Virus record (IMG/VR): IMGVR_UViG_3300050821_001425
Coordinates: 1 to 40,194 of that record
From: a virus
Strand: one strand, 5' to 3'
DNA: 40,194 bases
The position numbers were made by a program, and so were the translations under genes. Shown in pieces: positions 21,433 through 40,194 of this stretch. Within the stretch, counting starts at the first letter, position 1. Every line of letters begins with the position of its first letter. The notes beneath the pieces are model-generated. The model worked only from the letters and a program-made list of their open reading frames with translations, did not search any database and had not been told where the DNA came from.

Positions 21433-22680
21433 CTACTGCGGATCGGTTTTTGGTTTGTTCCTGAAGGCTACCCGCGTCTTGGACACACCGGCCACCTTCT
21501 GGACCGACCCGCGAGAATACCGCTGGGTCATGCCAATATCGCTGTGCGTCGCGGCGTGCCGGACGTGCTCGAGGTCGGCACCGGCGTCCGTGGCTTCGCT
21601 GATCGCGCCGGCCCGGCTGTCCATGTTCCGCACGGCCTTCGGGATGCCAGCCAGGTCAGCCATCAGCCGCCACTTGCGGCGAAACTCCGCGGTCGTATAG
21701 GGCCAGCCTGTCACCTCGCAAATGATCATGGGGCCAGAGGCCGGCAGAACTGCCCTGGTGAGCTGCGCGATCGGCGTGCGGCTGTGCAGGGCCAGTTCCT
21801 CGATGACCATGGGCGCCAGTTTCAGGTCAACCTCGATGTCCTTGCCGCGCTTGCTGGTGTTGTGCCGCAGGATCAGGTTTTCGTCGATCTCGTCCCAGCG
21901 GAGCCCCATCAGCCACTTGCCCTTGGGGCCTACTACAGCCGAAATGCCCGGCTCTATCAGGGGCACCCACTCGCCAATTACGTCCTTCTGGCGCAGCATC
22001 AATTCGAACTGGAGGGCCTGAGCGAGGGCCATCGTATCCCAGCCACGCCAGTGAGCCTTGACCCGGAGAGAAATAGCCTGATCGGCGGTGAGGCGTTCGG
22101 TGCGGGGCTTCGGCGCCGGAAACCGCATCTTGTGGAGTACGCCGCAAAGCCGCTCGCACTGATCGTCCTCGAGGATCGTGGCGCCGAACGCGAACATGGT
22201 TCGCAAATGACCGACGAAGGCGTGCGCCATGGCGATCTTTTGGCCATCGTTGCTCCATTCCTTGTGCCAGGTCAGCAGTAGCCGCGCCTTGATGTCGCTG
22301 ATCTGCTCATCGCCATGTTTTAGGACTATTTTCCGAAGCGTAATGTCGTGGTTCTTTCGGACGGCGTAGCGCTTCTTGTGGTAGGTCGAATCCGGGTCAG
22401 TCTGGTAACAGTTGACCAAACCTCTCAGGGAGCCATCGAACTGGTTGACCACGGGCAGTCCACCGCGGGCGAAGATCAACATTTCGTCTTGCAGGCGCCG
22501 GCAGGTATCCGCGATATGTGCGGCCTCCAGATCAGTCGGCACCGTTCCAGACCAAAGGTGATGGTTTTTTGGCTGGAAACCTCGCTTGACGAGATCGGCG
22601 CGGGCCCGCCAGATAGCCTCCCAGCCTTCGCCCTTCGGCCGCCAGACAATGCCAGGGGCGTTCTCAACGTGCGGTTTCAT
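21433..22680 (-). CDS. int: Tyrosine recombinase integrase
   Basis: 415 aa from ATG 22680 (GGGAGG upstream). Catalytic residues are visible: R230 in LMLRQKDVIG, a Lys-rich beta hairpin (TSKRGKDIEVDL, K277/K280), R356 in NMDSRAGA, H379 in HAATHSD, and nucleophile Y388 in TQRYSRG. The box II His is replaced by Met353. The arrangement matches integrases of alphaproteobacterial phages. It integrates and excises the genome at attP/attB. It lies in the middle of the leftward operon and overlaps a small winged-helix gene by 17 bp, suggesting joint expression. Confidence 0.92.
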   Translation of the reverse strand: MKPHVENAPGIVWRPKGEGWEAIWRARADLVKRGFQPKNHHLWSGTVPTDLEAAHIADTCRRLQDEMLIFARGGLPVVNQFDGSLRGLVNCYQTDPDSTYHKKRYAVRKNHDITLRKIVLKHGDEQISDIKARLLLTWHKEWSNDGQKIAMAHAFVGHLRTMFAFGATILEDDQCERLCGVLHKMRFPAPKPRTERLTADQAISLRVKAHWRGWDTMALAQALQFELMLRQKDVIGEWVPLIEPGISAVVGPKGKWLMGLRWDEIDENLILRHNTSKRGKDIEVDLKLAPMVIEELALHSRTPIAQLTRAVLPASGPMIICEVTGWPYTTAEFRRKWRLMADLAGIPKAVRNMDSRAGAISEATDAGADLEHVRHAATHSDIGMTQRYSRGSVQKVAGVSKTRVAFRNKPKTDPQ

Positions 22681-22933
22681 ATTTCGGCCTCCCTGTTGAA
22701 AGCGATACCTTAGTCCCGTACGTTGCATCAAAATAGTCTTTGACAGCCGGCCAATATCGTCTGTCCCCCCAAACCTTCTGTTTCCGGGGAAACCCAGTCG
22801 GCTTGGCGTCGAGCATCCGAAGCGTCTCTCGCGCAATCTTTTCCGGTACGCCCATGCGCCGGATCAGTTCAGCATCGGTCACCCAGAGCGTGCTGGCTTC
22901 GCGATCGAGAGTATCTTCGGCCGGCATTGTCAT
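22664..22933 (-). CDS. Small winged-helix protein, candidate excisionase
   Basis: 89 aa from ATG 22933 with an ATGA overlap on the upstream stop. The helix-turn-helix-like stretch TLWVTDAELIRRMGVPEK, followed by FPRKQKVWGDRRYWPAVKDYF, recalls AlpA/Xis-type DNA-binding proteins. It ends 17 bp inside the integrase start. Excisionases usually sit directly beside the integrase. The role is inference. Confidence 0.6.
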   Translation of the reverse strand: MTMPAEDTLDREASTLWVTDAELIRRMGVPEKIARETLRMLDAKPTGFPRKQKVWGDRRYWPAVKDYFDATYGTKVSLSTGRPKYETAR

Positions 22934-26912: not shown

Positions 26913-27100
26913 GACCAAGATTCCCATACAGGGCGCCGTGAATTTGATTTAGACAGATCCACATCGTGTCGGCAGGCTGCCTCACTCGGATATATTTTCC
27001 TCGTGACGCGGGATTTTTCCATTTCGAAAGAAAATTCCTCCGCGTACCAGCCGCCATCATCAGGCGAGTATACAAACGTGGTTTGGTTGGGGTAACTCAT
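26909..27100 (-). CDS. Small early protein, unknown
   Basis: 63 aa from ATG 27100 with GGGAGACCG upstream and ATGA overlaps on both sides. Aromatic/charged (QTTFVYSPDDGGWYAEEFSF), compact. Start at 27100 rather than the longer frame because of the overlap with the gene before it. Confidence 0.6.
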   Translation of the reverse strand: MSYPNQTTFVYSPDDGGWYAEEFSFEMEKSRVTRKIYPSEAACRHDVDLSKSNSRRPVWESWS

Positions 27101-27420
27101 GCCGCGGTCTCCCTCTTGATCGTGGTTTGCGAATCCCGCAGCGCAGTCCATTCAGCATCGAGTTGTTCGGAAATCTCGCCCGACATCATCAGTTCGTTGA
27201 CGGAGCGCTTGTACAATTCCCAGGCCGGCTTGCTGATTTTCTGATATTGTCGGTCAGCCTTGTCGCGTTCGCGTGTCCATCGTGGAGAGCCGTGATAGGG
27301 CTCCAGATCGACAATGGCGCGGGTGTGAGCAGCCAGCGCGGGCTTGGTAGCGATCTTGAACAGCGAAGCGGCTTCGTGCTCGCATTTTTCGAGGCGTTCG
27401 ACTTCTTCGGAATAGTCCAT
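27097..27420 (-). CDS. First gene of the left operon, helical protein
   Basis: 107 aa from ATG 27420, with CGGGGC upstream. A longer start lies in the right arm of the 27431-27455 palindrome and has no ribosome site. Charged helices throughout (EEVERLEKCEHEAASLFKIA; YQKISKPAWELYKRSVNELM). Predicted to be made first after leftward derepression. Unknown function. Confidence 0.65.
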   Translation of the reverse strand: MDYSEEVERLEKCEHEAASLFKIATKPALAAHTRAIVDLEPYHGSPRWTRERDKADRQYQKISKPAWELYKRSVNELMMSGEISEQLDAEWTALRDSQTTIKRETAA

Positions 27421-27430
27421 AGCTTGCCCC

Positions 27431-27455
27431 GTGGTTTCCATTCTGTGGAAACCAC
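27431..27455. repeat. Perfect 25-bp palindrome at the left promoter start site
   Basis: GTGGTTTCCA-TTCTG-TGGAAACCAC, ten perfectly paired bases on each arm. It overlaps the -10 and the expected transcription start of the left promoter. Its position at the start site makes it a likely protein site; an RNA hairpin in the leader is the alternative. Confidence 0.75.
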
Positions 27456-27482
27456 GTTACGTCGGGTGCAACACCATGTCAA
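27454..27482 (-). promoter_or_regulatory. Left early promoter (pL-type)
   Basis: On the minus strand, TTGACA (27482-27477) is followed by 17 bp and TAACGT (27459-27454). Start of transcription is expected near 27447, leaving a short leader before ATG 27420. The spacer and the -10 contain operator O1, so repressor binding would block RNA polymerase. Confidence 0.7.
27456..27472. promoter_or_regulatory. Operator O1
   Basis: GTTAC-GTCGGGT-GCAAC on the plus strand: the GTTRC-N7-GYAAC form, here lying in the -35/-10 spacer of the left promoter and covering part of the -10. Confidence 0.75.
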
Positions 27483-27489
27483 CAAAAAT

Positions 27490-27506
27490 GTTGCGCGGAA
27501 TGTAAC
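27490..27506. promoter_or_regulatory. Operator O2
   Basis: GTTGC-GCGGAAT-GTAAC, flanked by T and A that extend the dyad. It lies 7 bp upstream of the left promoter -35, 34 bp from O1 centre to centre, a spacing that allows cooperative repressor binding. Confidence 0.72.
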
Positions 27507-27553
27507 AAAATTGATGTTACCTTTATCCCGCTGAAATCATGCCAATATTTTCA

Positions 27554-27892
27554 TCAAGCCGCGGCGGATTGAGCAAAAAGCTCCAGCATCCGGATTGCCT
27601 GCTCGCGATTGGCAGGCGTCATTTTATTCAGGAGATCGAGGGCGTGGCCTTCTTTCTTGGGATCTTTCTCAAGCAGCATCGACCGCGTTACATCCAATGC
27701 ATCAGCTATAGCGTTTAGCACCGGTTCGCTAAATGGTTGTTTGCCATTTTCAATTCGAGAGAGGCTAGCATAGCTCAGCAATTCTTCCCCATCGAGCTCC
27801 ACTTCCAGCCGCGCAGCAAGTTTGCGGAGTGATATTCCCCGCTTTTCCCGCCACTGCCGGATGTAATGCTGTCCCTGCAGTCTCTTTGCCAT
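27554..27892 (-). CDS. CI-like repressor (XRE-family, no cleavage domain)
   Basis: 112 aa from ATG 27892. Helix-turn-helix region at about residues 10-75: YIRQWREKRGISLRKLAARL, then SYASLSRIENGKQPFS. The C-terminus is a short helical tail (MTPANREQAIRMLELFAQSA) probably for dimerisation. It lacks the peptidase domain that lets CI be cleaved in the SOS response, so induction may need an antirepressor. Operators on both sides and divergent promoters make it the lysogeny repressor. Ribosome site is weak; leaderless expression is possible. Confidence 0.82.
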   Translation of the reverse strand: MAKRLQGQHYIRQWREKRGISLRKLAARLEVELDGEELLSYASLSRIENGKQPFSEPVLNAIADALDVTRSMLLEKDPKKEGHALDLLNKMTPANREQAIRMLELFAQSAAA

Positions 27893-27926
27893 GGGAACAA
27901 TGCTTGCATGATTCAGCTCGGTTGTG

Positions 27927-27943
27927 GTTGCATAGGGTGCAAC
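27927..27943. promoter_or_regulatory. Operator O3
   Basis: GTTGC-ATAGGGT-GCAAC, the only copy with perfectly symmetrical arms. It lies between the repressor start and the right promoter, so it may control the repressor gene itself. Confidence 0.75.
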
Positions 27944-27950
27944 AAAAGAC

Positions 27951-27980
27951 TTGACAGCGTCGTTGCACTCCGTGTAACAG
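27951..27980 (+). promoter_or_regulatory. Right early promoter (pR-type)
   Basis: TTGACA (27951-27956), 18 bp, TAACAG (27975-27980). Operator O4 fills the spacer and the front of the -10, mirroring the left promoter. The predicted start falls at or within a base of ATG 27987. Confidence 0.68.
27962..27978. promoter_or_regulatory. Operator O4
   Basis: GTTGC-ACTCCGT-GTAAC in the spacer of the right promoter; 35 bp centre to centre from O3, close to the 34 bp between O1 and O2. Confidence 0.75.
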
Positions 27981-27986
27981 AGAGGG

Positions 27987-28208
27987 ATGAGCAGCCATCC
28001 ATTGAGATCGTATCGCAAGGACGCCGGGATCAGCCTGGATGAGCTGGCGTCGCGGGTTGGCGTCTCTAAAGCCTCTTTGTCTCGGATAGAAACGCGCCTC
28101 CAAGTGCCGTCTCTCGGGCTGGTAGAGCGCATTGTTGAGGTCGCCGGCGGGGCTCTTACGGCAAATGACTTCGTCGGGGGACGCGAGCCGGAAGAGGCGC
28201 GTGCATAA
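27987..28208 (+). CDS. Cro-like XRE-family regulator
   Basis: 73 aa: helix-turn-helix in SLDELASRVGVSKASLSRIE, followed by PSLGLVERIVEVAGGALTAN. Divergent from the repressor and first gene of the right operon, so a Cro-type role is the natural reading. AGAGGG abuts the ATG with no spacing, and the promoter places the start of the message at the ATG, so the mRNA may be leaderless. Confidence 0.8.
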   Translation: MSSHPLRSYRKDAGISLDELASRVGVSKASLSRIETRLQVPSLGLVERIVEVAGGALTANDFVGGREPEEARA

Positions 28209-30214: not shown

Positions 30215-30573
30215 GATGGACAGACGAGGAAGTAATCCGGCTGAAAGAGCTCTGGCTGGTAGCGCCTCCTGGCGAAATTCTGATTTCCTTTGCGCCGCGG
30301 ACTTGGCGATCCATCTATGCCAAAGCGGTCTCGATGGGCTTCGGTCTGAGAACCCGCGGAAGGTTCACGCCATGTCAAATGGAAGTCGTGCCCTTCCTGG
30401 CGGACGGAGAAATCACCAAGGTGATTGCGTGGAAGCTCGGCAGTTCTCCCCGGACGATTGAAACCCACATCGGGGAAATCATGCGCAAGCTTGGAGTAAC
30501 CTCAAGAGTCCGGGCCGCGCTTTTACTCGATCGGGAGCGGCGTCCTTTCCGTGAAGAAGGAGTTTCGGTCTAA
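30205..30573 (+). CDS. Regulator with SANT/GcrA-like N-terminus and LuxR-type HTH
   Basis: 122 aa from ATG 30205 (GGAGG upstream). Residues 3-48 (RWTDEEVIRLKELWL; TWRSIYAKAVSMGFG) resemble the GcrA/SANT helix bundle. Residues 53-110 are a LuxR/GerE helix-turn-helix (FTPCQMEVVPFLADGEITKV; SSPRTIETHIGEIMRKLGVT). Two DNA-reading units in one small protein is uncommon. Overlaps both neighbours. A late-gene activator or antiterminator role is plausible because the late region starts behind a terminator. Confidence 0.72.
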   Translation: MSVRWTDEEVIRLKELWLVAPPGEILISFAPRTWRSIYAKAVSMGFGLRTRGRFTPCQMEVVPFLADGEITKVIAWKLGSSPRTIETHIGEIMRKLGVTSRVRAALLLDRERRPFREEGVSV

Positions 30574-38670: not shown

Positions 38671-40194
38671 TGCTGCTCCTCACCAGCACGTCCGACCTGA
38701 TCCAAGTCGTTACGGGATCAGCCTCTACGGTCGATGTACATGCGTCATGGGTGGATAACAACGCCGGCACGATCACGCCAGGCCGAACCAATACGGCGAT
38801 CACAACGGCGGCCACGACAACCGTAGTAGCATCGCCGGGAGCAAGCACGCAGCGCAATATTCAGACCTTGAATGTTCGGAACAAAGACGCTGCGGTAACG
38901 AACGCGGTCACGATTCGACATACGGACGGAACGACGATCGTAGAGTTGATCAAAGCCACTCTTGGGCTCGGCGAGGAACTTTCGTTCGTTGCCGGTCATG
39001 GTTGGTTCATTCTGGACGTTGCCGGCTCGGTCAAGACGGCGTTTTCGATTCCTGCGGGAACAGTCACCAATACCGCGCTTGCCAATATGCCGGCCAATAC
39101 AACGAAAGGAAACAATACGGCGGGAAGTGCTGCGCCGGTCGATCTGACTAAGCAGCAATTTCTTGCAATGCAGAACTTGATCACTCCGACGCCCGAAAGC
39201 ATCAGGCTGTTCGGCCATAGCTACATGATGGATACGCTGTGCACTTACGATCAGTCGTCGGCGACTGCGGCGATATTCCGGTCAGCATTGCGTTGCTTCG
39301 CGGGCAACTGGGACAATTTTTGCAATGCCGGTTCCAGGCTAAGTTCAGACAGCGCGAAGCATCTGGGCGGGTGGGCCTCGGTGTTCAGTAATATTCGTGT
39401 GCGAGGGACCAACTCAACCAAGAAGATTGCGCCTTATACGGGCGTAGGTGGCCTGACCATCCTGGGATGGGGCATCAACGATCTGGGACATGATACCGAT
39501 ACGGCACAAGAGATGGCCGCGTTTATCCATGCGATGCGCTCCTGCATAAGCCGTTGCCGGGCAGCTATTGTCATGGACAATACGGACGCCTCATGCGCCT
39601 ATGGCGCGGGCTTTACGGCGGTCACATCGGTGCAGGATTTCTCCACCATGGGGACGCTCCGCCGCGCCACGACGACGACGACGGCCACGGTGACGATTAC
39701 GATCCCGGCCGATTACAACGGCGAGATGATCGTCGTTGCATTTATCGGCAAAGCCGGTGTTGTCGGAGGGACGATCACGTTTTCCGGGACCGCGGGCTGG
39801 ACTGGCACACTGAGCACGAGCAATATCAAGGCACTTGCAGACGCGACAAACTGTCCGGTCGTCAAGCGGCAGACGGCGCCTGTCACTGGGGCGACGCAAA
39901 CGATTATTTGCACTTGTTCCCAGATCGATGCGTCTGGGAACATGGATTTCGATAGTTGGTGGCTTGAATCGAAGTATCCTTCCCCCGTTCTTGTTCAGAA
40001 CATCGCGAGATTGACGGCGACGGGCCAGGCGTTCTGGGCAGAGTGGTCGGTAGGAGGTTCCGAAGCAATACGCGATGCGAGTTGCCTAGCGTGGAATGCC
40101 GCGCTCGTCTCGCTGGTCGCCGAGTTCGACAGCATGGTCCAGATTTGGGACGCTGATGCGGCTCTCGGTAAGGACGTGAATAACTTCAGTCTTC
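38670..40194 (+). CDS. SGNH/GDSL-type hydrolase, N-terminal part (continues at 3-773)
   Basis: Starts at ATG 38670 overlapping the previous stop and continues through 40194 into base 3, total about 747 aa. Residues 1-170 are a beta-rich virion-type domain. The SGNH core then shows FGHSYMM (Ser184, block I), NAGSRLSS (block II) and GINDLG (Gly268, Asn270, block III), with His515 in block V. The usual block V Asp is Ser. These enzymes remove acetyl or other ester groups from polysaccharide and often serve to trim host capsule or O-antigen. Its place between portal and scaffold is unusual. Confidence 0.85.
   Translation, partial: MLLLTSTSDLIQVVTGSASTVDVHASWVDNNAGTITPGRTNTAITTAATTTVVASPGASTQRNIQTLNVRNKDAAVTNAVTIRHTDGTTIVELIKATLGLGEELSFVAGHGWFILDVAGSVKTAFSIPAGTVTNTALANMPANTTKGNNTAGSAAPVDLTKQQFLAMQNLITPTPESIRLFGHSYMMDTLCTYDQSSATAAIFRSALRCFAGNWDNFCNAGSRLSSDSAKHLGGWASVFSNIRVRGTNSTKKIAPYTGVGGLTILGWGINDLGHDTDTAQEMAAFIHAMRSCISRCRAAIVMDNTDASCAYGAGFTAVTSVQDFSTMGTLRRATTTTTATVTITIPADYNGEMIVVAFIGKAGVVGGTITFSGTAGWTGTLSTSNIKALADATNCPVVKRQTAPVTGATQTIICTCSQIDASGNMDFDSWWLESKYPSPVLVQNIARLTATGQAFWAEWSVGGSEAIRDASCLAWNAALVSLVAEFDSMVQIWDADAALGKDVNNFSL
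40141..40194. repeat. Right copy of the 54-bp terminal repeat
   Basis: Identical to bases 1-54; see the left copy. Marks circular overlap inside the hydrolase gene. Confidence 0.9.

Follow-up and report, generated by a model that had tools for sequence, protein, structure and literature searches.

The OL/OR switch of phage lambda is composed of cI, cro, PL, PR and PRM, with three operators on each side at a spacing of about 24 bp; CI activates its own promoter from OR2, and the repressor mRNA is leaderless. A different layout is that of Rhizobium phage 16-3, in which two pairs of operators (oL1, oL2, oR1, oR2) flank the repressor gene, as they do in the locus described here, and in which each early promoter has an operator next to the −35 and another at the −10, which it covers at Pr and precedes at PL; these four operators are also listed in PMC12429752. 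The annotated order in 16-3, namely Pc, OR1, Pr, OR2, matches the order found here, and the −35 of its repressor promoter abuts OR1, with a −10 some 7 bp ahead of the start codon, an arrangement that can be likened to the PRM proposed below. The 2 × 2 operator layout is, in itself, already known. The two systems differ, however, in their components, as the C repressor of 16-3 has 263 aa and carries Peptidase_S24, whereas the repressor here has 112 aa, lacks that domain and shows no significant BLASTP similarity to C, and the operators of 16-3 measure 12 and 14 bp and are placed 17 and 26 bp apart from start to start, in contrast to the sites here, which are 17 bp long and spaced at 34 and 35 bp.

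The stretch of DNA analysed, hereafter the window, is a complete IMG/VR virus record of 40,194 bp. The comparisons set out below support the reading of its switch region, which the first-pass annotation had also put forward, as a lysogeny switch with four operators sharing one consensus; the precedent of 16-3 for the four-operator layout was absent from that annotation. More fully, this would be the immunity region of a temperate phage, with repressor dimers on O1 and O2 of both early promoters, and to this whole model of the switch we give a probability of about 0.87. The order of genes and promoters, the divergent cro, the repressor gene between the operator regions and the operators over both early promoters are all as in lambda, and so, probably, are self-activation from near −42 and a leaderless repressor mRNA; unlike lambda, there are two sites per side and not three, spaced at 34–35 bp, and the repressor has no cleavage domain. 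The features are the following:

21433–22836, minus strand: integrase, on the leftward side
27097–27441, minus strand: gene next downstream of PL, 114 aa if it starts at 27441 as called, a later start near 27420 being possible; no family match
27454–27459, minus strand: predicted PL −10, TAACGT, partly formed by the O1L half-site GTAAC; weak match
27456–27472, minus strand: O1L, overlapping the PL spacer and −10; GTTGCACCCGACGTAAC on the minus strand
27477–27482, minus strand: PL −35, TTGACA, read from the sequence and at an equivalent position in relatives
27490–27506, minus strand: O2L, upstream of the PL −35; GTTACATTCCGCGCAAC on the minus strand
27554–27892, minus strand: repressor gene, 112 aa, HTH_31/HTH_3, recognition residue R46
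27900–27928, minus strand: proposed PRM, with a weak predicted −35 (ACCACA, 27923–27928) abutting O2R and a weak predicted −10 (AAGCAT, 27900–27905)
27927–27943, plus strand: O2R, upstream of the PR −35, its centre 43 bp before the repressor ATG; GTTGCATAGGGTGCAAC
27951–27956, plus strand: PR −35, TTGACA, read from the sequence and at an equivalent position in relatives
27962–27978, plus strand: O1R, overlapping the PR spacer and −10; GTTGCACTCCGTGTAAC
27975–27980, plus strand: predicted PR −10, TAACAG, partly formed by the O1R half-site GTAAC; weak match
27987–28208, plus strand: Cro-like protein, 73 aa, recognition residue R33, divergent from the repressor

In the 40,194 bp the motif GTTRC-N7-GYAAC has five exact matches, against 0.07 expected in shuffled sequence, at 27456, 27490, 27927, 27962 and 39292. 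The first four are those announced in the first-pass annotation, with the spacings it gave (34 bp between O1L and O2L, 35 bp between O2R and O1R), and the centres of the two pairs are 471.5 bp apart. A fuller motif, GTTRCRY-N3-RYGYAAC, fits each of the eight sites that the window phage and L005, its nearest relative, have between them, and its exact matches in the window are the four operator sites only, with no further site beyond two per side; a count of this fuller motif with one mismatch adds 27687 alone, and nothing comparable appears elsewhere in the phage. The match at 39292 is rejected as a fifth operator, as it is unpaired and violates the fuller motif at two positions. The one at 27687–27703, operator-like with one mismatch, lies within the repressor gene (codons for ALDVT) and is likewise rejected, its counterpart in L005 keeping one half-site only. 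The four sites are almost certainly operators, given the 0.07 matches expected by chance and their conservation and covariation across relatives.

At both early promoters the elements follow the order O2, TTGACA, O1, with O1 lying across the spacer (17 bp at PL, 18 bp at PR) and the −10, so that the association of each pair with a TTGACA promoter, one of whose operators covers the spacer and −10, is seen on the two sides as had been claimed. The −10 boxes of the two promoters are weak, and a simple scanner reported no sigma-70 promoter. The half of O1 on the −10 is always GTAAC in the window phage and in L005, which gives TAAC, while the other half is GTTGC; this half-site of O1 seems, by its sequence, to double as part of the −10 box. 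Next to O1L, a perfect 11-bp inverted repeat with a 5-bp loop (CGTGGTTTCCA, 27430–27456) spans the predicted PL start, and inverted repeats of different sequence occupy the same place in L005 (ACGCTCCA..TGGAGCGT) and in another relative, L014 (CCCATC..GATGGG). The repeat of the window is possibly the site of a second regulator.

On the side of the repressor gene, the centre of O2R lies 41 to 43 bp before the repressor ATG in eight loci, and in six of these eight O2R is followed by CCAC and then by a −10-like sequence 6–7 bp before the ATG. The start predicted for PRM would fall at, or adjoin, the ATG. By analogy with lambda, the repressor on O2R may activate its own leaderless transcript, a tentative reading to which we grant slightly less than even odds, and as both PRM boxes are weak in the window, the leaderless, O2R-helped transcript is something that we infer.

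The phage is temperate, to judge from the integrase, and the gene content on either side of the switch, with the integrase to the left and a DnaA-C-like protein, a primosomal-like protein, terminase and portal to the right, suggests that PL and PR govern two early arms. The rightward arm also encodes a protein with a LuxR-type DNA-binding domain (30217–30573), weakly matching the PHROG “sigma factor” family, and small LuxR-type regulators are found in the equivalent arm of Rhizobium phages RHph_Y1_10, N2 and I1_23. As for the repressor, its 112 aa match only helix-turn-helix families, with no peptidase domain (S24, self-cleavage), and its structure model (mean pLDDT 82) consists of the HTH followed by two C-terminal helices, all of which bears out the earlier remark that it has no cleavage domain. 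Foldseek gave the repressor weak matches, to ClgR, SinR, Stl and C.Csp231I at E 0.005 or worse, which were set aside. LexA-type GTTC-N7-GTTC boxes number 4 in the window, against 1.3 expected, none of them convincing and none before a recognisable antirepressor; no antirepressor domain was detected among the early genes scanned.

Repressor homologues were found in IMG/VR and in Rhizobium phages, as well as on a Devosia plasmid and on a Martelella contig, the last being the one relative given by two scans of genome contigs, of which the first found none; a DNA search of the switch region against named phages gave no match. The nearest relative, L005, has a repressor 78% identical and four equivalent sites in a matching layout, 35 and 34 bp apart. 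Between its repressor gene and its left pair lies an additional ORF of 138 codons (L005:6343–6759), whose product is hydrophobic at its N-terminus and matches no Pfam family. The ORF occupies the place that rex has in lambda; by analogy, it is possible that this is a superinfection-exclusion or conversion gene. More distant homologues are found in Rhizobium phages RHph_Y1_10, RHph_N2, RHEph18 and RHph_I1_23 (40–52% identity) and on a 44.6-kb Devosia plasmid (32%), annotated as HTH regulators only, without operators; the repressors of RHph_N2 and RHEph18 match the query to an equal degree. Both OR and OL pairs are present in the three Rhizobium phages examined and in the Devosia plasmid, with different half-sites (GTMAC, TTCAG, TTAG). 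This plasmid (Devosia sp. SL43 plasmid unnamed1) carries, together with the switch, an integrase, HNH endonucleases and a DNA methylase, and may be a phage-plasmid or a circular prophage.

In seven phages, one per kind, a weight matrix made from the right-hand pair only was scanned over 9–40 kb: in 7/7 the left pair supplied the two next-best matches, and in each of them 0/60 simulated sequences held a pair as good. When right and left pairs were both sought without prior knowledge, with 20 nulls per phage, 32 of 44 relatives scored above every null, where about 2 would be expected to do so, and 12 failed. Compared with the downstream DNA of other phages, a phage's own ranked first or second of 43 in 28 phages, the near-ties arising mostly with phages of similar half-sites. 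The half-sites vary widely across relatives (GTTRC, GTMAC, TTTAC, TTCAG, TTAG, TGTGC, TGTAC, TTTCC, GTTCG and others) while the spacing of about 35 bp stays, the right pair being 33–36 bp apart by search and 35 bp in all nine close loci. Among these nine loci a single one (L015:6428–6489) has its OL sites 45 bp apart, as opposed to 33–36. The window phage itself combines a homologous repressor, an OR pair within 33–36 bp and a matching OL pair.

The variation in half-sites is accompanied by variation in the proteins. Base 5 of the half-site tracks the residue aligned with R46 in the recognition helix in 31 of 32 phages, in classes that were drawn up after these first 32 phages had been seen: R/K with C (19/20), D/E with G (2/2) and the other residues, here Q/N/L/M, with A (10/10); the window has R46 and C in all eight half-sites. 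The site lists were built from DNA alone, a few doubtful sites having been dropped by eye before the comparison with the residues. Shuffles reach at most 25 of 32, a significance that kinship among the phages overstates, and on the tree the residue class changes 7 times and the base 8 times. Of all columns and positions, the pair formed by residue 46 and base 5 has the highest mutual information (the second by z-score), and among those with the next-highest values are residues 41, 42 and 47, which lie in the same helix. The rule was then fixed beforehand and scored automatically on held-out phages that shared no more than 85% identity with the first set or with one another. In these, 52/70 pass the operator-pair test, 44 with a clear base 5 and 8 ambiguous, and the rule holds in 38 of the 44, against 17.3 expected from the table margins; the six that break it include phages with R/K whose operators are GTTGTA and TATGTA, and phages with Q whose operators are GTTTGC or GTTAGC. 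Residue 33 of the Cro-like protein, which corresponds to repressor residue 46, fits base 5 in 29/32 phages, and the classes of the two proteins agree in 30/32. Since the residues of both fit base 5, the repressor and the Cro-like protein most likely both read these four sites.

What the comparison among phages shows is that the four sites are present, are conserved and covary with both proteins, and from this we would infer dimer binding, repression, activation and a leaderless start as follows: (i) dimers of the 112-aa repressor would occupy O1 and O2 at both early promoters, where, from the position of O1, its occupancy would block spacer and −10 and turn off PL and PR; (ii) O2 would be held just upstream of each −35, and at O2R, 43 bp before the ATG and at the edge of the weak −35, bound repressor would probably boost its own leaderless transcript; (iii) the divergent 73-aa Cro-like protein would bind these same sites and tip the switch towards lytic growth; and (iv) base pair 5 of the half-site would be read by repressor residue 46 and, in Cro, by residue 33.

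Other explanations can be contemplated. If the sites were chance or low-complexity repeats without function, the 0.07 matches expected and the conservation and covariation across the family would have no account, and this idea, already refuted by them, is given practically no weight. It could also be that the Cro-like protein or another regulator alone reads the four sites, the repressor gene merely lying between them, as Cro residue 33 likewise tracks base 5 in 29 of the 32 phages; however, the fit of repressor residue 46 is slightly closer (31 of 32) and was borne out in 38 of 44 phages outside the first set, and in L019 and L033, whose proteins differ in class, the base goes with the repressor, which makes this a very improbable account. 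A DNA loop in which the repressor would join both pairs across its own gene, a possibility that the first-pass annotation had raised, has also been considered, here as something needed for stable lysogeny. Both ends keep two pairs in many phages, and O2L, which has no PRM to serve, needs some other reason for its conservation, although it may simply help to block PL. The distances between OL and OR centres, from 424 to 1281 bp in nine loci of seven phage kinds, vary freely and show no common helical phase, no helical phasing of OL and OR was found, and the repressor has no recognised oligomerisation domain. Looping, which finds no positive support beyond the layout, seems to us unlikely as a requirement.

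It is fairly probable that these small repressors, devoid of a cleavage domain, form a large, undescribed family built on one 2 × 2 operator scaffold with drifting specificity, in which one position of the recognition helix, common to the repressor and Cro, is matched by a single base shared by the four operators. No description of the small-repressor family, its spacing or the residue-base rule was found in the literature searched, mostly papers accessible without subscription. The switch is widespread and its repressor lacks a RecA-type cleavage domain, so that induction must use another route. A change of immunity is an old puzzle, as it calls for a joint change of the repressor, of Cro and of several operators, and here the family supplies dozens of natural cases within one scaffold, with a rule tested on phages that had not been used to draw it. 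If it is true that a single helix position tracks the operator base, immunity groups would become readable from sequence, and the rule predicts shared immunity, for example between the window phage and L005, as well as a single residue that would switch specificity.
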